Shown one piece after another: positions 23,120 to 47,980 of a stretch of 64,000 nt of DNA (its first letter is position 1; every line of letters starts with the position of its first letter). Under the pieces are notes generated by a model. The model had not been told where the DNA came from, did not search any database, and saw only the letters and a list, made by a program, of their open reading frames with translations. The translations under genes and the position numbers were made by a program. The DNA is taken from positions 15,674,154 through 15,738,153 of the forward strand of contig OV277874.1 of assembly GCA_922989275.2 (NCBI GenBank). The letters are read 5' to 3'. The DNA is from Gari tellinella (Eukaryota > Mollusca > Bivalvia > Cardiida > Psammobiidae).

Positions 23120-25851
23120 AGCTTCAACAGTATCTTCTGAATAAGTATGGAGAAGAGAACAAGTACTGGGTCAATCCTGTGGATGACGAGGAGGTACACC
23201 TTTCAGAAATGTATGTTCAACCTTCTGTGAAGCGTATAAGAGAGATCGATGAACATGGGCAGATGGAAGAAGTAAAAGAGCACAAGTCAGAGTCCTCTAA
23301 ACTTAAATATAATGACATATTCCAGTCAAAAACTGGAGATATCTGTAAAAATGTTTATATCACCGGCGAAGCTGGGACCGGAAAGTCAACATTTTGTAAC
23401 CGGCTGGTCCTAAACTGGTGCATTGCAGTGCAGAATAACAAAGACTTGCTAGCTGACAACAACGCGTCGACTTGATACTCTGGATGGTCAACAAGCCCAA
23501 GAACTATTGGCATCTTTCACGGTTTTGTTTCACCTTAATTTAAGAGCCACTGAAACAATTTACCATGTTGAGGACATGATTCAAAAGCAGTTATCGAATG
23601 CCCCAGTGTCGTTGAATATATCAGACATTCTTAAATATGAGAGGTGTTTGATTGTTTTGGACGGTTAAGATGAGTGGACATGTCCACAGGATGCTGCGAA
23701 ATGCCCTAGTATAAATCAACACATTCCCGGCAGAAATACGGCAAATAAGAATTGTACCTTTATTACTACCACTCGTAATTGGAAGTATGATGTTATGGCT
23801 CTGAAAAATAAAGATGTGGATAAACATGTAGAGTTGAGTGGCATTGATAAAGAATCTTCAAAACAACTTGCACATAGAATGTTAGACTACCTTGATAAAG
23901 GCTCACAAATAAACAAAAATGTTGACGACTTTTATTCTGAAATAGAGGGAAACAATCTTGACGAATTTTTATCTGTGCCTGTTCTTCTCATACAGTTGAT
24001 AACTCTGTGGTTTTTTGGTAAAGACTTTGGCAACTCGCAGTTACGATTATACTGCAATATGCTGGACCTGATGTTTGAACGTTCTGAGAAAAATCTTCCT
24101 GAGGAAATCTCAAAATGTCCTAGCACAACTATATCTACTGCAACAAAGCTGCCAGAATGTTTCAGTATAAAAGACAGTTGCAAAAAATATGCAGAGTTAC
24201 TCCACTGCTTATCACAGCTGGCTTTTAAATCACTGTTTAACGAACACAAGGAAGAAGCACTAATCTTCAAGAGCTCAAAGTTGGAAATTTTTGGCATTTC
24301 TCCCTCAGATATTAAACTCTGCTTACATTGTGGCATTTTGTCTCAATGTAAGGATTATGGCAATCGTTCAGGGAAATATAAAAAGTTTTCATTCTTACAC
24401 AAAAAAGTACAGGAATGTCTTGCAGCTTTGTATATAGTTACTAACGACAAAGTAGAAGACATTCTGAAAGAAGTTTATCAATACTGTAATTCAGTAGAGA
24501 CCATGTTAGAAATGAATCAGGTGTGGTTGTTTGTAGCTGGAATGGACCCTGACATGACAAGACATTTGTTTGAACATTTTGGTCATGTTGTTAGTACTGA
24601 CGATTGGGTTAACATTTACAGACATACTGTAAACATTTGGCAATATCGGATTACCGGTACTAAGAATTTGATAAGCAACATACAGAGATGTGTATTGGAC
24701 TGTGTGTTAGAAGGCACTAAGAATGGCCACCGTTATGAGAATGTCGTTTTGGAGGATTTTGATATTGAGTACACTGTCCGTAACGAAGAACGTTTGTTGG
24801 TCTGCTGTGACATGTCTAAAGTCAAGTCTGTGAATATACATTCTTGTTACTTTGAAGCTGATGAGCTGCCAGCTATACCTAGCCAGTTGCAACAATGTCG
24901 CTCCCTACAAAAACTGTTTCTGTATGAAGCCCGTGACTCCTTTAAACCCGTCGGTACAATAGAAGCTCTAGTAGGTAACAATTATATCACACTTGCATCC
25001 ATTACCTTGGTCACTCACATCAAAGCCACAGATAAGTTAGTTAATGCACTGTGCGGGAGCATACGCAAGTCATTGATGACACTTGTGCTGAAGTTTGTTA
25101 ACCCTTTACCTGATAGCCTATTTCTAGTATTCAAGATAGGTGACCACTTAAAGCAGGTTGAAAGTAAAGCAGAATGCGCCCTAAGGCGCATTCTGCTTTA
25201 CATTCAGCCTGCTTTAAGCTTCCATGTGCTAGAATATTGAAAATTTTCCCTATACTATATAATCATGACTGATTAAATTGGAACTATTTTCTTCAGCGGA
25301 GGAATAAATCATATGTGCTAAAAGTCGCTTCTATTGGGTAAAGGGTTAAACTGAAACATAAACACAGAAAACAAATATTCCGAAGTGTATCCCGGTCATC
25401 TGTCATTAGACAGTTAAAACTGGAAATGTTATCCTGTAGAGACCATGACGACGAGTGTATACCTGCTGGGATAGACTTGTCTGCTATGAGTAAGCTCGAG
25501 GAACTTACTCTGGTTCGCTCAATGTATGTTGATAATCTGCAGTCTCTGCCATGCTGTGTGGCGAAGGTTGAACTGAGTTATGTTACATTACCAGTGTCGT
25601 CACTGCGTGACTTTGCTCACGAACTTTCAAAGACAAAACGTTACGTGACCGTAAAACTATGGTCGGTAACCTTTACAGAGAGAAAGACAAGAGGTATCAG
25701 GGGTTTCTTTAGGCAAGAAATGAAACAGTTAACTAGAGAGGAGTGCGGGGACTTGAAAGGTTGTCTCCTAAGCTGTCCCAGCTTGCAGTTGACCGAGTGC
25801 AAGTATGATGACAATACATGGAGTATAGAGTTCTTCTTAAACAGCATGTAA
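23120..25851 (+). pseudogene. CARD-NACHT gene, last exon: NACHT ATPase + LRR-like repeats, broken
   Basis: Acceptor TACTTTTCAG opens the exon in phase 1 (codon split G|AG). It holds Walker A (about 23362-23391, GEAGTGKST), the P-loop helix NRLVLNW, a Walker B block ending DEW with an in-frame TAA at 23666-23668, a sensor-1 TTTR, a winged-helix-like region with LHKKVQECLAAL, and C-terminal leucine-rich segments. The frame shifts near 23440-23475. It then stays open from 23669 to 25240, past the start of a MITE at 25102. The true C-terminus resumes at 25350 and ends at TAA 25849. Removing the MITE together with one TTAA restores one continuous frame, shown by alignment to the intact minus-strand copy. 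Confidence 0.8.
25102..25345 (+). mobile_element. P1 MITE inserted in the NACHT/LRR exon
   Basis: A 244-bp element with ends CCCTTTACC and GGTAAAGGG, flanked by TTAA at 25098-25101 and 25346-25349. The centre is a near-perfect hairpin (25146-25218) with stem TTAAAGCAGGTTGAAAGTAA and apex GCGCCCTAAGGCGC. Removing the element plus one TTAA joins LVLKFV to KLKHKHRKQ in frame, matching the intact paralogue. Confidence 0.9.
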
Positions 25852-35886: not shown

Positions 35887-38297
35887 TTACTGACCGCTTG
35901 TGTGGAACTCTATAGACCAAGTATTTTTCCAGTCATCATACCACCACCTTGTCAACATTAAATCAGGACAGTTCTGGAGGAAACCCTTCAAGTCTCCACA
36001 CTCCTCCCTTGTCTCTATAAACGTTACAATGATAAGTTCTAAGGTCACTTTACGTTTTGTCTGGGAAAGTCCGCGAGCAAAGTCACGCAGTGACGTCACT
36101 GGTAATGTAACATCCGACAGTTCAACCTTCTCCACACAGTGTGGCAAAGACTCCATATTATCTACATACATGGAGGACAGAGTAAGCTCATGAAGCTGAA
36201 TCATAGCTGACCAGTCTATCGTAGCCTTGCACTTGTATCCGTGATCTGTACAGTGTACCTCTCTCAGGTCTAACTGCCTAATGGTTGGAGATTGTGATAA
36301 GCTGTGTAGTATTTGTTCTTTATGTCCATGTGTCACTGTCACCTTATTCAACTCAAGTGCCATTAAATGTTTGCCAATGTTCCTGCATATAGCTGTAACT
36401 AATTTGTCTGTGGCTGTGATACCAGTCAACAAGGACATGGCTGTAAGTGAGTCACAGTTGTTATCTACTAGAGCTGCCACTGTACTGTCGGGTATAAGGG
36501 AGGTGGCGGGTGTCATGGGTATAAGGGAGGACCTGTAGTCATTCAGGGACAGTCTGTGTAGTGAACAACAATTTAGTAATTGACCAGTTATAGATGCTAA
36601 ACTAGCAGCGTCAATGTCGTCGGTATCAATATACACAGACTTAGCTTTGGACATGTCAGAGCAAAGCAACAAACGTTCTACATCACGGACAATGCGGCCA
36701 AGAATGTAGAAATCCTGAAAACAGACATTCTCATAATGGTGACCATTATTGATGCCTTCTAATACACAGTCACATACACACCTCTGTATGTCGCCTATCA
36801 AACTGTCATAGTCATTGTCTACAGTTTGTCGGTGTGTTTTTACTCGTTCATCAGCACTAACAACATGGCCCAAATGTTCTAACAACTGTCTTGTCAGGTC
36901 ACGGTCCATTCCAGCTACAAACAGCCACACCTGATTCATTTCTAACATGGTCTCTACTGAATTACACAATTGTTTTACTTCTTCTAGAGTGTTTTCAGCC
37001 TTGTCGTTAGTAACTAAAAACAAAGCTGCAAGACACTCCTGTACCTTTTTGTGTAAGAATGAAAACTTTTTATATTTCCCTGTACGATTGCCATAATCCC
37101 TACATTGAGACAAAATGCCACATTTTAAGCAGCGTTTAATATCTGAGGAAGAAATGCCAAAAATTTCCATCGTCGATTTCTTGAAGACTAAACATTCTTC
37201 TTTTAGTTTGTTAAACAAGGCTTTATAAGCCATCTTTGCTAAACAATGGAGTAAGTCTGCATATTTTTGGCAACAGTGTTTTGTACTGAAACATTCTGGC
37301 AGCATATTTTGTATTGTTACATTTGTGGTGGAGCATTTTGAGAATTCCTCAGAAAGATTTTTCTCAGATCGTTCGAACAGCAGGTCGAGCATACTGCAGT
37401 GTAGTTGCAACTGTGAGTTTCCAAAGTCTTTACCAAAACACCACAGAGTTATTAACTGTATGAGAAGAACCGGCACAGTTAAAGATGCATTAAGCTTGTT
37501 GTCGTGGACATCTTTAAGAAATTCATCAACATTGTTGTTTGCTATTGAATCTCTGTCAAGATAGGTTATCATTTTCTGTGCCAGTTCCTTTGCTTGTTCT
37601 TTACCAATGCCATCCAGTTCTATATGCTTATCCACATCTTTATTTTTTAGGGACATGACATCATATTTCCAACTTCTTGTAGTTGTAAGGAAGGTACAGT
37701 TTTCAAATGCCGCATTTCTGCCAGGAATGTCTTTATTTATTTTAGGACATTTCTTCGCAATTGCTGGACACGACCATTCGTCTAATCCATCCAGAATAAT
37801 CAAACAACTCTCAGCGTTAAGTATGTCTGATATACTGAAAGACTGCCGGTCATTAAATAACTGTTCTTGAATCATGTCTTCAACACGATAGGTGTTTCCA
37901 CTGTCTCGTAAACTTATGTGAAACAAAAACCTGAAGGTTGATAGCAATTCTCTGTCTTCAGTAGTGAGGTTATCATCTGAACTATTCTGCACCGCCCTAC
38001 ACCAGTCGAGAACAAGTTGGTTACAAAATGTAGACTTACCGACTCCAGCTTCACCACTGATGTAAATATTTTTACACAGATCTCCAGTTTTAGATTGGAA
38101 TATGTCTTTATATATTAGCTTAGTCGGTTGTAAATTCGGCTCATTAACGTCTTTCATTTCTCCATGTTCGTTGATCTCTCTGATACGCTTCACGGACAGC
38201 TGAACGTACATTTCTGAAAGATGTGCTTCCTCCGACGTTAGTGGGTTCTCCCAGTATATTTCCTTTCTATACATCCGTAGAATGTGTTGTTGGAGAA
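35887..38297 (-). CDS. CXorf38-NACHT gene, NACHT + LRR-like exon (intact)
   Basis: Acceptor TTTACCTTTCAG enters in phase 1 and the exon runs 803 codons to TAA at 35887-35889. It opens LQQHILRM, parallel to LQQYLLNKYG in the plus-strand copy. It contains Walker A (GEAGVGKSTF), Walker B plus adjacent acids (IILDGLDEW), sensor-1 TTTR, LHKKVQECLAALFLV in a winged-helix-like region, and C-terminal leucine-rich segments (LNCCSLHRLSL, PTIRQLDLREV, IQLHELTLSSMYV). All key NTPase residues are present, so this copy should bind nucleotide. Long blocks are nearly the same as in the plus-strand copy, showing recent duplication. Confidence 0.9.
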
Positions 38298-41200
38298 CTG
38301 AAAGGTAAAGTAAATGCCACTCATTGCAATATTTCTTAAGTCAAAATAACTAAAAATTAAATTTGAGAAATAAAAGCAGACGATACTTGTTCAAAATTGA
38401 TGACACATTATTGCGTCATCAATTTTGAACAAGCATCGTCTGCTTTTATTTCTCAAATTTACATTTAAGATATTTTGACATATTAAGAAATATTGCAATG
38501 AGTGAAATGTATGCAGTTTGGATCCTGAATAGACGCCGCGACACGCGGTGTCTGATCAGGGTCTAAACTGTTGAAAAATAACTATTGTATTCGGGATAAG
38601 GCAGTGAAGTGGTCAACCTAAGTATGATAAAGAGTATGGTCTAGGACTAATCGTGTTAATCTGAGTGGCAAACAGTTTAGGGCCTGGTCAGATGTCGAGT
38701 TACTGGTCGTCTGATCAAACTCAAAACTGTTTGCAATGGGATAAAAGTTATAATTATACTTGATAGACCTTCAGTTTCATGTCTATGATATTTCAATAAT
38801 TTGTAATCTTTAATGTATGTCACAAAATACTGTATAATAAGGACCGGCATGGACATGGAGTATTCTTTTACTCCCGTTTGTGTTATTCTTATCGTATAAT
38901 GCTGCTTGGCATGTATCATGCTTACTGTTTTGCTATGTTTGAACCAATGTGCCATGCCGATGTACATTTTATGATGAATAAATATATCTATCTTGGTCTA
39001 TATATCTATCAGTCGTTTTAGCCTAGACGCGTTTATTGCGACAAAATAATGTCTGTACGTACCTTCACATGTGTTTTGAAAATCATTCACACCGCACGGA
39101 TGGGTATCTGCGTATGGCTGTAACTAAAATATATCAATGTTTATATGAGTATAAGTATTGTAAAAGTACACTCCATCCTACTGTTTAAACTACAGCTGAC
39201 GCATCCCTGTATTACCAGTTGTTATTAAACTTACTGAAATGACACAACTATTATTGAAAATTAGTTTGAGCGAGATGAGCAAACAAACGTTCCGCATAAT
39301 TCCATTTAATCTAACAATCTTTGTAGGAAACCATGCCAAGAATTTGCTTAGTGAATGTCCATGCCATATTTCTCAATGATCCCTTAGGTTAAAACTTATT
39401 GGTGTCTGCATCTCACTAATCTTTTCACTGCAATAGGTGCCAAAAGGCGTACAGTGGAGAATCTGTTATTCTGACGTCATTAGTGACGTTATACAGTGGA
39501 TAATCTGTTATTCTTTCCCAATAAACGCGTTTACGCTAAAACTATTATTTGCAGTGCAAACAGTTTGGAACCAGATCAGACGCCGGGTAACCCGGCGTCT
39601 GATCAGGCTCCAAACTGTTTACCACCAAGATAAACATGAAATATCAGAATTGTCCAAAATTTGTTCTTTTCTATGTTTTATCGCTTTGCGTACGTTTGCG
39701 TTTAAACGGGAAAGAATAACAGATTCTCCACTGTATCTGAAAACTATTTGGTTCGTGACCAGACGCCACGTAACGCAGCGTCAGATACGGATCCAAACTG
39801 TTTGACACTCGTGTCGATATTTATTCAGACAAACTGCTCTAAATCGGACTTGACACAATATTAAAGAGACGACACTATGAATGCAGACCTGATGTTTTAT
39901 TATTATAAAGTTTTCAATGTTCTTATGGCTGGCACTTGCTGGGATTCACTTGAGCTCTTAACTGCGTAGTTTACATGTACATTGATTCTTGAAACTAACA
40001 CGATTTAATACGAAATGCTTAAATGAGACCATAGCTACTATACAAAATATCTACATACAAGTCATCAACGGACAATGAATAATTAAACGAGGGCATTCTG
40101 AAAGTTTGCATCCATACATTAGATTGATCAATTAACTTAGCATACATTAGTCCATACCATTTCATTAAATAGGATTAAGTGTATTTTATATTACAGACTA
40201 AATGTAAACAAAATATTTGTATTGCCCGGATATATGCCCGGATATATGAGTATCTTGTTAAATATGTTCCGAACAGGACATTTGAAAGTGATCGTTTGAA
40301 CCTATTATGAAGGCTAAGTGTCGTGCTTCAGTGAATTCCTGAAATGTAATTAGAATATCTATACTGTTATCAAACACAGGCTTAACACATTGAACCCTAG
40401 CGACGAGTATACTCGTCATGAAGAAATCATTCAGCTATTTAGAATACACTTCTCCTATGAAAACAGTTTATATCCTGATCAGAGGGATCCTTAAGTAGCC
40501 CTCTGATTAGGATCTACACTGTATGTCATTTTGTAAAATATTGTTAAAAAACCACCCTTATTATTAAGAAATGGACTCAATATAATTGGAAATTGGAATT
40601 GTTCATTTAAAGATTCAGGGTTGAATGAGTTAACATATGTTTGCCATGTACAGTGGAGAATCTGTTATTCTTTCCCAATAAACGCGTTTACGCAAAAACT
40701 ATTATTTCCAGTGCAAACAGTTTGGAGCCAGATCAGACGCCGGGTAACCCGACGTCTGATCAGGCTCAAAACTGTTTGCCACCAAGATTAACAAGAATTA
40801 TTAGAATTGTCCAAAAGTTATTCTTTTCTACGTTTTAGTGCTTTGCGTTTGCGTACGTTTGCGTTTAAACGGGAAAGAATAACAGATTCTCCACTGTACT
40901 TACCCTTATTTTCTTTTCTACCGAATGCAACCTGTGATCAATATCCGCCACACGTTTTTGTAAGTTTGTCATGTCATCCACAATCTCATGTTGTTGCAGA
41001 AACTCATCAAACCTTTTCTGTGCTGCTTGTAGCTGAAAAAAACCCCATGAAAACACATCTCAATTATCGAATTCTTGTATCCTATAAATATGTTTATGAA
41101 GGACATTTTAAAAATAGAAATTTCCATGAAAAGGATTAATCAACCACATGCTTGTGTCTTGTTTTATATATATAACATGTAGAGAATATTTAATTCCTTT

Positions 41201-44200
41201 GGATTGATATGAAAAATATATCACGAGGATGGGTTGTTATCTGGTTGAAAAACGAGTCTGCTGGACGAGTTTTTTTTAACCCTTTCCCCCATAGAAGCGC
41301 CTTTTATCCACTGTAAAAAATAGTTCCAATTTTTACAGCCATGAAAATGAATAACCAGAAATATTTTGTAAATCCTAGCAGATGAGAGCTTAAAACAGGC
41401 TGAAAGTAAAGCAGAATGTGCCTTCGGGTACATTCTGCTTTACTTTCAACCTGCTTTAGGTGGTCACATATCTTCAAACTAGAAACAAGCTATGGGGTAA
41501 AGGGTTAACCAGATAACAACCAATTCGAGTGATATGTTTCATATCTATTCAAAGGAATTGATTATTCTATTTATTATATATATTTTATTGACGTTTTTAC
41601 AGAAAAAACACCACACAATTAATTATTTACGCAAGGCGACGTCACAAAAAGTGATATCATCCATAGACTAAGTGATGATATCAACTGTGACGATATCAAA
41701 AATATCTAACTGAGAAATATCTATAAATCATCGATAGGTATATAATAAATATAATAATGAAATTCTTTGGCACACTTGTTATTAGGACTGACTATTACGA
41801 CCCATATAGTTATCACGATAGTTATTGATAGTTGAAAATACTTTCACTATCGATAGTTGGATTCACTATTGCAAAACGCGTACTTTCAAGAAAGTTTATC
41901 ACATATTATACTATTATGAATAAAAAACATATATAATGTGTTCTATATTCTAGTAAATGGCTGAAGATTAAAACAGAAAGCGTATTCTGCTTTACGTTCA
42001 ACTTACTTTAAGCAACACTCTGTCTTAAATATTGAAAACAAGCTGTAGGCAAAAGCATTAAAATATACAGAAACACACACTGGGAACAAAACAAACACGC
42101 CACAATAAAATCCAGGTGCAACTCGTGGAGACAATTTTTCTGTTTCTTTGATGAAAGTGATAAAGACACAACTATCGATAGTAGCTCTTTCTATCGTCGA
42201 TAGTATCGATAGTTTGATTTTGCAATCGACTATCGTAGCATCACCTATCACGATAAGTGAACAAGAAACACAAAGTAACATGACTGTGAAAAATCATTTC
42301 TGTAAAGTTCGAAGAACTGACCATTTATTTTTTGAGAAGTTATTGAAAGAAAAGGTTTAGGAATTGATTAGGATTGATAACGACCGACGCGCGACAGACA
42401 ACAGCCGACGCCGGACACAGGACAATCATAATAACTCACCTTGGCATTCATTTAGTGCCAGTGCAGCTAAAAACAATACAAGAGAAAAACAAGTTACCCC
42501 ATTACCCCACAGACTGTTTCTAGCTGTTAACACAAGTTACTACTTAATACAGATTGAAAGTTAAGCAGAATGCGCCTTAGGGCGCATTCTGCTTAACTTT
42601 CAGCCTACTTTAAGCAAACATTTGCTAGAATTTAGAAAATATTTCTTAAGGTACATACTCATACTTGTGTAAATTGGAACTATTTTCCTCAATGGATGAA
42701 TAAACAAGAGGCGTAAAAAGGAGTATTTTTGGAGTAATGGGTTAAGGGTCTTTTGAATTTAAGTCAAACCTCTTTCAGAGCATCCCCATGGATCTTCAAC
42801 TCTGTTCCCTGACTGTCTTGTTCTTTCTGTATACCATCAACACGTGGCCTGACATCTCTCACATCTCTCTCTAACGCAATCTGCGCTTGTCCTAATGCCC
42901 GCAATTCTTGCTCCTTGTACATCGCCAGTTCTATCACAGTTGTCTTCAGCTACAGTAAAAAAGACGTTATCATTTTCCGTTTAACCCGTTCACTCTCAAT
43001 GACGCTTAAAATTGCGTTTGTTAACAGTTTGGATCTTGACACGACGTCTGATCAGGATCCAAACTGTTTGACACTCGTATCGATATGTTTTAAGTCATAC
43101 TACATTGAACCTTTAAAATAAAAGTTGCCATATATAATGTATAATTTTTATATAATTGAAATTCAAACTGTTTGCCAATAACTGTTGTACTTGTAGTTAT
43201 GCAGTAAAGGGATCAATTTGCCCTCCATTATTATAACAATTCCCTCCGAATAGTTATGAATCCGGTGTTTTTGTTGAGAGGGGGTACTATTGTTATGAGA
43301 AAAGGTTTATAATTACATGGTAAGGATGAGGAATTAGGCATTCCAATTTATGTAAAAGGGATAACAAAGACCTAATATTAAACGCCTTTGTTGTGAGATT
43401 TGGCAGTAAAAAGGTTAATATTTGAAGTAAATAATTTAGCTGTTATATCGACCTGCGTTACTCTATCCGTTGCTGTCTGTAAACTGGCTGCTTCATTCTT
43501 TGTCAATCCAGTCATGCCTTGTAAGAAGTCCAATATCGTCTTCAAGTAATTCTGTGTATCTGCGTCATTCACTTTGAAATCTCCTGAATGGAACATGCTG
43601 TTTCTAATAAGAAGTAACTGCAAATAGAATAATTGTATGACTCATAAACCTATATCTTTTGTCTAGATTTCGATGTCAAGTGGTTCGTCTAAAGTACCCC
43701 AAACCTCTCCAAACCTCTCAAAATCTGCACAAACAAATAAAAATACACACAACACAAACGTTGATTCCTTAGTATCTAATCCAATACAGCTTATAAATTG
43801 TGATGATAAGCTAACATTATGAAAAAAATGTTAATTTAAAATAAAATCTACGATGTCTTTCATTTCAAGAGAAGCATCTCGTACAACACTGAAGAAAACT
43901 ATACACAGTTATTATCCAATAGCCCGTTTCTGGTTTTGAAGACAGATATTCACTTGAAATAGATTAAAAGTAAAGTAAAATGCGCATTAAGGCGCATTCT
44001 GCTTTAATTTCAACCTGCTTTAAGCTATCATCTGTTAGAATATGGAAAACTTCATTTTAAAAGTGGTTGGGGAGGTTTGGAGAGGGGTCTTGAGACGGAC
44101 CGATGTCAAGACGTTGCCTTATGCAGGTTGAAAGGTTAGGTCCGCTTTAATCTATCATCTGCTAGCATATAGAAATTATTTCATATTGTGTATATATTTC

Positions 44201-46554
44201 TGATTATATGAAATGGAACTATTCACTTCAGCGTAGGAGTAAATGAAAGGTGTAAAAAGGCATATCTATGGAGTAATGGGTTAAGTCCGCAATATTATTA
44301 GTTACACGGTATTCCGGCAGGGTGTACGGGCTGGTATGACGGTTTTGGATTCCGTATTTCCTGAGCGCGAAGCCGTGTAACGAATTTATTTCCAGTCTAG
44401 ATCCAAAACAAGAAAGACAACATGCATCATCTGACATAGTGTTGTTTACTTGATCCTAAATTGACACTTGAAATTGACAACAGTTCACTGAAATCTCTCG
44501 CGCTAGAGCAAAAAAGTCTATACAGTTAAACTTCGATGTTTGGAACTTGCATAAGTAGAATCTACCTGCATTTCTACATATTAATGTCATAAACCCGCTT
44601 CTGTTGAACATATCCGTATTTCAAGCTAAAAAAGTGGCATATCCACCTTTTAAACTTTGAAATACCGATATGAATTCAAGATAGGTCATAAGTTTAACTG
44701 TATCTAACATGATTACGTCATCACATTGGAATGTGGGCATCTTATAAATGTTCATTACATGTAGGCTACCAAAATATTTCGAACGGACAGTTCTAGGACG
44801 ACATTTATGTTTTATGAAACACTGTAACGATAAGTTTTAACAAATGAACGGACATAATCAGGAGCGAACGAATTAATACGTAGGTCAGTGGCTATGCATA
44901 TCGAGTTAAGTCTATTTGGGTTGATTTCGATGAAAAATATTGATCTAAATATGACCTAATTATGTGTCAATTTCATTATAAACCAGTGACAAGTGCCATT
45001 TCATTTCCAGTGGTTTGTTTACCATGGTGACGACGCGGGTGGGGGTAATCAGGGAAAATAAAGCAAGAAATTAGCATTTAATCGATATTTGAGTTACACA
45101 TACGCATAATGATAGATTCAATACAGTTTTTAATTGAGATTTCTTTTTATTTCTTGATAAACAATTGCTTAATAAACAGAAAAAGAGAGATTATTTACGC
45201 GAATCGATCGAGGGAGAAACATCTATTAAGTCACGTGATCCGTACTACCCGGCAAAATCAATGAATACGGTCTCGTACACAGTGGTCACATGTGCAGTTT
45301 TAGCCTATCAGAGTCCAAGAATTTATGATGACTGGAAATAATAACCCTTATTGCACAAAACTGATGCCATGGGCGTGTATATGGACCGGCAACCCGATTC
45401 GCAATAAACTGTTGGATTGAATTGACCAATTTATGGGTTACCTTGATTCGCCTTATCTTTAATTGCGATAAACTTTTTCTTCAGTTTTGTATTCTCTGAA
45501 TTGATTATGTATTGTAAACATTGATTGTGAGCTTACCCTACTATAGAAATTTTAACTCATTCACCCATGAAACATTTACTGGACAATTCCGATTTTAAAA
45601 TAGGTAAGTCAATTTTTTACCAATAAGTGTTGATTTTAACAATATATTTCAAAATGACAAACAGTGTAGACCCTGACCAGAGGGCTCCTTTAAGGAGCCC
45701 CCTGATCAGGGTATACACTGTTTGCATGGCACAAGTGTAATCCTCGCAGGTACAGTGGAGAATCTGTTATTCTTTCCCGTTTAAACGCAAACGTACGCAA
45801 ACGCAAAGCACTCAAACGTAGTAAAGAACAACTTTTGGACAATTCTGATAATTCTTGTTTATCTTGGTGGCAAACAGTTTGGAGCCTGATCAGACGCCGG
45901 GTTACCCGGCGTCTGATCTGGCTCCAAACTGTTTGCACTGCAAATAATAGTTTTAGCGTAAACGCGTTTATTGGGAAAGAATAACAGATTCTCCACTGTA
46001 CACTGTTTGTAAATGACGAGTATACTCGTCGCTAGGGATGAATGTGTTAAAGTATAACGACTTACTTCCTGGAGTAGATCCTGTCTTCCTATGTTTTTAC
46101 CACTGGAAAAGTGTTTACAGTTTATAAACAAGGACAGCATGCCTTGAATATCCATATCTCTAGCAGACCTGTCTTTGCCACAGCCATAAGGCAGGTAAAT
46201 CTTTATTGTCTCCCAAGGATCAACTCGCCACAGTTGGGGATCCGTGTTAGCTGGTGACAACTTCGGAAAATGAGCATTCCGGTGATTACTTATGACTTTC
46301 TGTAACCACAAGTCACAGTCCGGGCAGGTCATGTACCATCTTTGATTGCGGCCAGTCTTCTTAATGTCCGTAGACGTACAGTGGCAGAATCGTGTAGCTG
46401 GGCCAATAGACGCAAGTAGTCCGTTATGAAATATGGTGGCTTGATTGTCGGTAAAGCCTTCAAGATCTTCTTTCATGTGCATCAAAGCCAGTGTCGTCCG
46501 TAGCCAGTTGATATATTCTTGATCGTCGAACCTTGATCCACCACTAGTAGCCAT
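35887..46554 (-). CDS. CXorf38-like/HEPN - coiled coil - NACHT - LRR-like receptor (intact)
   Basis: A predicted cytoplasmic NTPase receptor of 1142 residues from six coding exons (complement of 46066-46554, 43453-43617, 42770-42949, 40904-41032, 39063-39117, 35887-38297). All junctions are GT-AG and total coding length is 3429 nt with no stops. Residues 1-218 resemble the vertebrate CXorf38 family: an N-terminal YINWLRT block, a CxC…CPDC cysteine set, VDPWE, then IRNSMFHSG at 167-175, an RNxxxH motif as in HEPN domains. Residues 219-321 are heptad-rich coiled coil. NACHT follows: Walker A GEAGVGKS 421-428, Walker B LIILDGLDEW 505-514, TTTR 544-547. The C-terminus has divergent LRR-like repeats. 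I infer a nucleic-acid-responsive or antiviral NLR. HEPN activity is unproven. Confidence 0.8.
38340..38505. repeat. Hairpin repeat upstream of the NACHT exon
   Basis: Arms GAGAAATAAAAGCAGACGAT and ATCGTCTGCTTTTATTTCTC around ATGACACATTATTGCGTCAT, with outer TTGCAATATTTCTTAAGTCA pairing with 38480-38505. A Q-type remnant follows at 38515-38575. It lies about 45 bases upstream of the acceptor of the minus-strand NACHT exon. Confidence 0.7.
39063..39117 (-). CDS. CXorf38-NACHT gene, 55-nt linker exon
   Basis: Acceptor TTTTAGTTACAG and donor GTGAAG|GTACGT bound 55 nt reading PYADTHPCGVNDFQNTCE plus one base. The exon was found because its neighbours do not fit together: coiled-coil exon B ends in phase 0 while the NACHT exon needs a phase-1 partner. 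This exon is 18 codons + 1 nt and resolves the mismatch. Confidence 0.65.
39451..39735. mobile_element. Q1 MITE with a second partial left end
   Basis: A full copy at 39491-39735. Another TACAGTGGAGAATCTG at 39451 followed by TGACGTCATTAGTGACGTTA suggests insertion of one copy into, or recombination with, another. Confidence 0.7.
40386..40632. mobile_element. Q4 MITE
   Basis: TTAACACATTGAACCCTAG … TTCAGGGTTGAATGAGTTAA. The hairpin has apex AGGGATCCTTAAGTAGCCCT. Confidence 0.7.
40649..40898. mobile_element. Q1 MITE abutting a splice donor
   Basis: Complete element ending CTCCACTGTA at 40898. On the minus strand the gene reads AGG|GTAAG followed by TACAGTGG of the MITE, so the element's terminal T is donor position +6. 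Confidence 0.85.
40904..41032 (-). CDS. CXorf38-NACHT gene, coiled-coil exon B
   Basis: Acceptor GGTTTTTTTCAG and donor ATAAGG|GTAAGT bound 43 codons in phase 0 (LQAAQKRFDEFLQQHEIVDD, then LQKRVADIDHRLHSVEKKIR), a second coiled-coil block. The sixth base of the donor (T) is the first base of a MITE inserted at 40649-40898, so the transposon forms part of the splice site. Confidence 0.75.
41276..41508. mobile_element. P1 MITE
   Basis: TTAACCCTTTCCCCCATAG to GGGGTAAAGGGTTAA, in reverse orientation. The core at 41388-41460 has apex GTGCCTTCGGGTAC. It lies in an intron of the CXorf38-NACHT gene. Confidence 0.75.
41800..42265. mobile_element. TIR element of 'ATCGATAGT' type with P-core insert
   Basis: The ends are inverted (TATCACGATAGTTATTGATA at left; ATCACCTATCACGATA at right) with several ACTATCGATAGT palindromes. 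A partial P-core MITE sits at 41937-42060. Intronic in the CXorf38-NACHT gene. Confidence 0.5.
42492..42746. mobile_element. P1 MITE
   Basis: Starts TTACCCCATTACCCCACAG and ends GGAGTAATGGGTTAA. The core at 42544-42615 has apex GCGCCTTAGGGCGC. It ends 24 bases before the donor-side boundary of coiled-coil exon A. Confidence 0.75.
42770..42949 (-). CDS. CXorf38-NACHT gene, coiled-coil exon A
   Basis: Acceptor TTTTACTGTAG and donor AAAGAG|GTTTGA bound 60 codons in phase 0. The peptide (LKTTVIELAMYKEQELRALG, then IALERDVRDVRPRVDGIQKE) is rich in Leu, Glu, Lys and Arg with heptad spacing, consistent with coiled coil and oligomerisation. No homologous exon was seen in the CARD paralogue. Confidence 0.7.
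42983..43212. mobile_element. Q3 MITE, core partly deleted
   Basis: TTAACCCGTTCACTCTCAAT … GCAGTAAAGGGATCAA; the hairpin is shortened (GGATCTTGACACGACGTCTG). It lies next to the acceptor side of coiled-coil exon A. Confidence 0.6.
43453..43617 (-). CDS. CXorf38-NACHT gene, exon with RNxxxH (HEPN-type) motif
   Basis: Acceptor TTCTATTTGCAG and donor ACGCAG|GTCGAT bound 165 nt, phase 0 on both sides. The peptide begins LLLIRNSMFHSGDFKVNDAD, continues NYLKTILDFLQ and then a helical segment ending DRVTQ. The 'RNxxxH-SG-f.v' run and following helix align with the C-terminal part of CXorf38-type domains. The motif is complete within this exon. Confidence 0.75.
43912..44285. mobile_element. P1 MITE with internal duplication
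   Basis: P-core at 43950-44028, then a second partial right arm at 44120-44284 (AGGTTGAAAGGTTAGG … GTAATGGGTTAAG). The GGAGAGG/CCTCTCC stretch between copies pairs with 43710-43730. Confidence 0.55.
44703..45554. other. Intron of CXorf38-NACHT gene, nothing assigned
   Basis: No repeat core, hairpin or supported exon was found in this part of the intron between the first two coding exons. Confidence 0.4.
45555..45742. mobile_element. Q4 MITE, partial
   Basis: It contains TCATTCACCCATGAAAC and the hairpin CAAACAGTGTAGACCCTGAC with apex GGGCTCCTTTAAGGAGCCC. It runs into the Q1 at 45751; its other end (GACGAGTATACTCGTCGCTA … GTGTTAAAG) appears beyond that Q1 at 46012-46050, so Q1 was inserted into Q4. 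Confidence 0.65.
45751..46000. mobile_element. Q1 MITE in the intron after the first coding exon
   Basis: TACAGTGGAGAATCTG … CTCCACTGTA, complete. The reading frame of the upstream exon continues into it and stops inside it at 45859. Confidence 0.85.
46066..46554 (-). CDS. CXorf38-NACHT gene, first coding exon
   Basis: ATG at 46554 lies one base after an acceptor (GTTTCTACAG on the minus strand), so a 5' non-coding exon is expected upstream. The 163 codons read MATSGGSRFDDQEYINWLRT and continue with EDLEGF, FHNGLLAS, CHC, TCPDCDLWLQKVI, VDPWE and LFINCKHF, the order of blocks in the CXorf38 family. The paired cysteines (CHC and CPDC) could bind zinc. The donor is GAA|GTAAGT, phase 0. The frame stays open past the donor into the intron for 79 more codons (see findings). 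The end coordinate is good to within about 2 bases. Confidence 0.8.
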
Positions 46555-46650: not shown

Positions 46651-46911
46651 CCTATTTACCCCATAACCACATAGCCTGTTTCTAGATCTGAAGATAGATG
46701 ACTACTTAAAGCAGGTTGAAAGTTAAGCAGAATGCGCCTAATGGCGCATTCTGCTTTACTTTCAGCCAGCTTTAAGCTACCATCTGCTAGAATATAGAAA
46801 ATATTTCTAATCATACATACATGTATATATAACAGTATAAATTGGAACTATTTTCTTCAGTTTAGAAATATATTTAAGGCGTAAAAAGGCGTATTTATGG
46901 GGTAATGGGTT
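46651..46911. mobile_element. P1 MITE
   Basis: TTACCCCATAACCACATAG to GGGGTAATGGGTTAA. The core has apex GCGCCTAATGGCGC. It lies in the predicted first (non-coding) intron of the CXorf38-NACHT gene. Confidence 0.75.
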
Positions 46912-47391: not shown

Positions 47392-47980
47392 TACAGTGCT
47401 CCCTCTCCACAACAACACATACAGTGGAGAATCTATTATTCTTTCCCAATAAACGCGTTTACGCTAAAACTATTATTTGCAGTGCAAACAGTTTGGAGCC
47501 AGATCAGACGCCGGGTAACCCGGCGTCTGATCAGGCTCCAAACTGTTTGCCACCAAGATAAACAAGAATTATCAGAATTGTCTAAAAGTTGTTCCTTTCT
47601 ACGTTTTAGTGATTTGCGTTTGCGTACGTTTGCGTTTAAACGGGAAAGAATAACAGATTCTCCACTGTAGTGGGAGACGAAGATTGTGTGCGATGTTTAA
47701 GAGAGGGACATTGTTATAGAGAGGGGCATTGGCTTACATTTGCAAACAGATAGAATCCAGATCAGACGCCGTGTAACGCTGTTTGTCACATGCCATAATT
47801 TGTTCTGCCAAAATGGCCAATATTTGACTTTGAGAAGAAAAAAACAGAGGTCAGTTTAAAGCAGACGATATTGCAGCCGTGAAGTTGAGCCAAATTGTCT
47901 TATTTGGGGCACAGCGGCATGCGTCGTTCTGAGGAGGGGATAGTTGTTCCTAGGGCCGTTAAAGAGAGGGAGCACTGTAA
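47392..47980. mobile_element. Q2 MITE with a Q1 MITE nested inside
   Basis: Outer ends TACAGTGCTCCCTCTCCACA and GAGGGAGCACTGTA. A complete Q1 (47420-47669) is inserted about 28 bases from the left end, at TA. The outer core is partly degraded (ATCAGACGCCGTGTAACGC). Confidence 0.8.

Follow-up and report, generated by a model that had tools for sequence, protein, structure and literature searches.

Whether an animal NLR could itself be an RNA-cutting enzyme is the question raised by a receptor gene on the minus strand of the window (the whole 64,000-nucleotide stretch of DNA analysed, C19:15674154-15738153). A preliminary description had proposed that the N terminus of this receptor is a CXorf38-like domain with an RNxxxH motif of the HEPN type, fused to an intact NACHT.

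Exon chain and domains of the receptor

Joining six exons in phase gives a frame of 1,144 residues that runs to a stop codon in the window translation. Exon 1 (46066..46554, phase 0, donor GT) starts with an ATG at 46554 and contributes 163 codons, which hold the N-terminal part of the CXorf38/DUF4559 domain and a zinc-ribbon insert. Because this ATG lies one base past an AG, a non-coding exon upstream is likely. Exon 2 (43453..43617, 55 codons, phase 0) covers the predicted HEPN active-site helix region, exon 3 (42770..42949, 60 codons, with similar exons in paralogues) belongs to the coiled-coil-like portion towards the C-terminal end of the DUF4559 match, and that match ends in exon 4 (40904..41032, 43 codons, matched in four paralogous loci). 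Exon 5 (39063..39123) is a short linker of 61 bases, placed by phase and splice sites, which is entered in phase 0 and left with one base over. Exon 6 (35887..38297) is an open frame that carries NACHT and the C-terminal region up to the stop codon. All five introns start with GT and end with AG. The stretch 43453-46554 that was singled out in the preliminary description corresponds exactly to exons 1 and 2 plus the intron between them, and joining these exons, both in phase 0, does place IRNSMFHSG at residues 167-175, with R168, N169 and H173 where they had been reported.

In a Pfam search, the whole protein matched DUF4559 (PF15112), which we take to be the model of the CXorf38 family (the Pfam name itself is only DUF4559), over residues 8-320 (E 4.2e-39; 135.3 bits against a cut-off of 27). 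The match spans positions 1-302 of the 305 in the profile, in agreement with the CXorf38-like domain claimed earlier. Exon 1 alone matched over residues 8-151 (E 2.2e-26), exon 2 alone matched profile positions 152-185 (E 2.3e-5; 24.5 bits, below the cut-off of 27), and exons 3 and 4, which are coiled-coil-like, are covered by the match of the whole protein. NACHT occupies residues 419-585 (37567..38067, minus strand; E 2e-9, 37.9 bits against a cut-off of 26.7) and was found at the same place by a genome-wide profile search. In the translation, GEAGVGKST provides an intact Walker A motif and LIILDGLDE an intact Walker B. The in-phase chain, the NACHT match and the two Walker motifs uphold the claimed fusion to an intact NACHT. 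The C-terminal half contains no Pfam family above cut-off, LRR included, and the receptor's 19 Pfam matches at E 10 include no LRR, Death or dsRBD family. This unclassified C-terminal region probably senses the trigger.

We consider it quite improbable that this is a decaying, non-functional gene copy. It is surrounded by many repeats, and a related NACHT gene of the same window is broken, but its own frame is open across six exons with intact Walker motifs. Moreover, dN is lower than dS in comparisons with near copies, both for exon 2 (L049; dS 0.55, dN 0.25) and for exon 1 (L039; dS 1.15, dN 0.28).

Recurrence of the fusion in the genome

The fusion recurs in the genome. Across 1.6 Gb in 80 contigs we found at least 129 DUF4559 matches, counted as exons; this total is a lower bound, as is that for NACHT, because 129 of 232 DUF4559 candidates and 95 of 227 NACHT candidates were scored. 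Exon borders were kept in every paralogue row that reached them: GT after exon 1 (40/40), AG before exon 2 (46/46), GT after exon 2 (41/41), the start (13/13) and end (9/9) of exon 3 and the start of exon 4 (4/4), where each row is one locus and some loci overlap. Eight loci were retrieved with 8 kb, and in four of these (L039, L040, L044 and L045) exons 1-4 are collinear on one strand; at the same threshold L046 has exons 1-3, L042 and L043 have exons 1-2, and L041 has exon 1 only.

We also counted DUF4559 matches in the neighbourhood of NACHT, using 121 of the 129 (the eight omitted were short or weak, and seven of them covered the exon-2 part of the profile). A DUF4559 match lay within 25 kb upstream in sense at 20 of the 81 scored NACHT matches, on ten contigs, compared with 3 of 81 downstream and none of 81 on the opposite strand. 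By chance, about 1.7 would be expected after random shifts of the matches by at most 1 Mb (2,000 trials, maximum 7), and 10.0 when strands were random (2,000 trials, maximum 17). On these counts and the kept exon borders, we rejected the reading of the exon chain as an artefact.

The least certain exon of the chain is exon 5, which had no match in paralogous loci at E 0.05. One weak sense stretch was present in locus L043 (E 6.3); a second, antisense one in locus L046 was put down to chance. The CXorf38-like exons might in principle form a separate gene, the fusion being an error of the gene model: the short exon 5 lacks a clear paralogue, and exon 1 is about 8 kb from the NACHT exon, across introns of 0.5 to 2.4 kb. 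We regard this as very improbable, given that the chain is consistent in phase with its borders kept in paralogues, that DUF4559 lies upstream of NACHT in sense and never on the opposite strand in the count above, and that DUF4559-NACHT genes have been annotated in the clam Corbicula (PMC8298618).

The two kinds of domain differ in their distribution over the contigs, and no contig numbered above 19 has a match to either. Taken with the genome size and the parallel in Corbicula, this suggests a bivalve genome. C19 carries 50 of the 81 scored NACHT matches, and its interval from 29 to 43 Mb alone holds 42 of these, a large receptor cluster. DUF4559 matches are concentrated on C15 (45 of 121) and C9 (29 of 121), many in arrays, and the scored NACHT matches, whose total is a lower bound, include three on C15 and none on C9. 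One C15 copy (L077) has, downstream of its exon 1, a 9-kb stretch that contains no closed open frame of more than 95 residues. The arrays on C15 and C9 may consist of NACHT-less CXorf38-like genes.

Affinity to HEPN and conservation of the RNxxxH motif

Profile searches of the N terminus, which the preliminary description had proposed, gave a strong match to DUF4559 and a HEPN signal that was clearer in the family than in the window copy. The Pfam family HEPN_Swt1 matched 10 of 14 domains (the window copy and 13 paralogues) at E ≤10 and was absent in the other four, HMMER filters dropping most weak matches. Its best match was a copy on contig C7, 17.8 kb upstream of a NACHT match (E 8.4e-7; 29.7 bits against a cut-off of 27.5), this copy being the one above the cut-off among five paralogues scanned singly. 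The window copy stayed below it, with E 0.015 and 16.0 bits for residues 1-218 and E 0.073 for the whole protein. The best alignment covers positions 26-114 of the 115 in the profile, begins past the zinc ribbon and contains the RNxxxH motif. HEPN_RiboL-PSP matched 4 of the 14 domains (best E 6.8e-4). By these profiles the family belongs to the Swt1-like branch of HEPN, although the window copy alone falls below the cut-off, and we infer that the receptor N terminus adopts an HEPN fold.

The zinc-ribbon insert (C57-x-C59 ... C77-x2-C80; 46315..46386, minus strand) has four cysteines that are invariant in all 14 aligned domains, consistent with the putative zinc ribbon inserted in domains of the CXorf38 type. 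The family matches, with a zinc ribbon before the HEPN_Swt1 region, agree with CXorf38 as it has been described before, a Swt1-like HEPN into which a zinc ribbon is inserted (PMC3710099). Against the aIF2-beta zinc ribbon the insert gave a weak in-register match (E 0.28), which alone is not significant. A sequence search of the PDB produced no relative above chance: archaeal aIF2-beta zinc ribbons aligned over the cysteines at E 0.28 and above, and two HEPN-type chains, 8yuf and 8xdj (the latter entered as HEPN toxin), at E 0.41-0.42, the RNxxxH of 8yuf being in register with the window motif, while an unrelated AP-3 subunit scored better (E 0.22). The preliminary description had looked to DZIP3-type HEPN domains for comparison; the profile matches and the classification in PMC3710099 instead point to Swt1-like/CXorf38 as the nearest branch. 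DZIP3/hRUL138-like HEPN (PF18738) had no match to the window protein at E 10 and was absent from the 13 families matched by the 14-member set.

The claimed HEPN-type motif, R168-N169-xxx-H173 (43588..43605, minus strand), is present in the translation and has the Rx4-6H form, with a polar residue after the arginine. We found 71 exon-2 matches in the genome, counted as exons, of which 30 were retrieved as loci in their own right; among the remaining 41, some copies lie within other retrieved loci. Among 76 loci searched, 49 gave an exon-2 row with a match (some copies are doubled, and the other 27 had no exon 2 or no match), and R, N and H were kept in all 49. Removal of gapped, partial and duplicate rows left 32 non-redundant full-length copies, in which only R168, N169, H173 and F194 are invariant among the 55 exon-2 columns; this set is biased towards lookalikes, its rows having been found by similarity to exon 2 or to a neighbouring exon. 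The 14-member alignment, in which L064 is two residues short at the end of exon 1 and L037 and L043 are partial in exon 2, has 25 invariant columns, including C57, C59, C77, C80, E115 and K118. E115 and K118 may be the conserved acidic/basic pair found in many HEPN families, the typical spacing of which is given as Ex3[KR] (PMC3710099). Over 143 pairs of exon 1 the median dN/dS was 0.22, and over 221 pairs of exon 2 it was 0.36 (range 0.115 to 1.31, with some recent pairs above 1); the pairs have sequences in common and so are non-independent. These medians indicate that both exons are under purifying selection overall.

In our reading the gene belongs to an NLR-like receptor family that is expanded in a mollusc-like animal genome, and its product consists of an N-terminal HEPN domain of the CXorf38 (Swt1-like) kind with an inserted zinc ribbon, then a coiled coil, NACHT and a C-terminal region. 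The interpretation that we lean towards, with modest confidence, is that of a receptor in which NACHT switches an HEPN RNase. Binding of a ligand to the C terminus would open NACHT, ATP-driven oligomerization would then bring together at least two HEPN domains, and RNA would be cut by their paired R168/N169/H173 sites. The target might be cellular RNA, the loss of which would stop the infected cell, or viral RNA. The fold, an active site formed by a dimer and oligomerization through NACHT are what the respective families would lead one to expect.

The main alternative is that the HEPN domain is an RNA-binding or oligomerization/adaptor module that signals via partners, with RNxxxH serving RNA binding or structure and not cleavage. 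We hold this to be possible, if rather unlikely. Eukaryotic Swt1 HEPN domains are themselves listed as inactive in the 2013 survey of HEPN families, which also reports dsRBD fusions of CXorf38 in vertebrates and others that would fit RNA binding (PMC3710099), and a zinc ribbon would fit it too. However, the three catalytic-type residues are invariant in all 32 copies while 51 of the 55 columns vary, and HEPN domains thought to bind substrate are reported in the same survey to lose the motif (PMC3710099). The invariance of the motif favours cleavage as the predicted activity.

Should activation of NACHT set off RNA cleavage by the HEPN domain, animals would possess NLRs that are themselves enzymes and resemble bacterial STAND effectors and RNase L more than inflammasomes. 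The locus is of interest mainly because an animal NLR is predicted here to have enzyme activity, and an intact gene with many natural paralogues makes an RNase test of the family practical. A more speculative extension, to which we give little credence, is that the NLRs of this lineage are oligomer-activated RNases that carry out the immune response directly, without Death-fold adaptors or caspases, and that the many CXorf38-like genes with no scored NACHT nearby, as in the arrays of C15 and C9, are partner RNases recruited by NACHT sensors, like plant helper NLRs.

Published relatives and the surroundings of the gene

The preliminary description had called this a new kind of animal effector. 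That claim does not hold: both the kind of protein and the mechanism have been proposed before, and the design has been known since 2013. Anantharaman et al. described CXorf38 as an HEPN family with an inserted zinc ribbon, marked it 'active', and listed fusions to dsRBD, NACHT, ankyrin, CARD and DEATH (PMC3710099). They proposed that NACHT couples the cleavage of RNA to apoptosis or defence and drew the analogy to bacterial HEPN-STAND proteins, so that the bacterial HEPN-NTPase parallel noted for this locus had a precedent (PMC3710099). The receptor resembles that family in its DUF4559/CXorf38 domain, inserted zinc ribbon, retained RNxxxH motif and NACHT fusion. The NACHT and DEATH fusions in that account were placed in cephalochordates and cnidarians (PMC3710099); the present receptor differs in that it probably comes from another lineage, is part of a large expansion and has no Death or dsRBD match.

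DUF4559 was counted in 45 of 99 NACHT genes of the clam Corbicula fluminea in 2021 (PMC8298618). These 'NLRP' genes likewise combine DUF4559 with NACHT and are expanded in a bivalve; the terms 'HEPN' and 'CXorf38' are absent from the main text of that paper, where the RNase link is not drawn (PMC8298618). DZIP3-type HEPN-NACHT proteins are likewise common in pearl oyster, with more than 50 (PMC9646362), and in corals, with 17 to 83 in anthozoans (PMC8260672). They too carry an N-terminal HEPN domain on a NACHT receptor, with an RNxxxH-type motif in pearl oyster (PMC9646362), but belong to another HEPN family, PF18738. HEPN RNases have further been described as variable effectors beside TRADD-N, DED and STAND in oysters and cnidarians (PMC8195603). 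There, too, HEPN serves as the effector part of immune proteins in animals; the architectures are others, and the account given there names neither CXorf38 nor DZIP3 (PMC8195603).

RNase L offers a further parallel, namely regulated dimerization of an HEPN-type RNase domain in antiviral defence. Its sensor and regulator differ, comprising 2-5A, ankyrins and a kinase-like domain. It was named as an analogue in the 2013 work as well (PMC3710099). What the present analysis adds is the joining of two literature threads in one genome, the test of the motif across paralogues and the exon evidence.

Searches of protein databases with the whole receptor, with residues 1-330 (by words), with the domain alone and with the 14-member alignment returned no relative, and none emerged when bacterial and archaeal genomes were scanned with that alignment. 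PADLOC gave no match, and PHROGs gave only weak matches, of one member each. A term search of the text of a 2025 paper on human CXorf38 retrieved no 'HEPN', 'RNase' or 'ribonuclease', and the matches listed in the open-licence literature included no biochemical test of a CXorf38-type HEPN domain.

Elsewhere in the window, a second NACHT gene lies on the plus strand at 23122-25833 and is related to exon 6, with 56-67% identity by piece. It is broken by a frame change and an in-frame stop beside Walker B, and a loose search of the window found no CXorf38-like exon near it. The window also contains MITE-like elements of about 250 bp with near-identical 28-base inverted ends (for example at 45751-46000, 40649-40898 and 47420-47669), some of them inside introns of the receptor gene. 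The 28-base ends gave 24 matches within 3 mismatches in the window and none in 100 shuffles. Other short hairpin repeats, recognized by eye around GCAGAATG...CATTCTGC, lie at about 46720-46760, 42560-42600 and 41395-41445.
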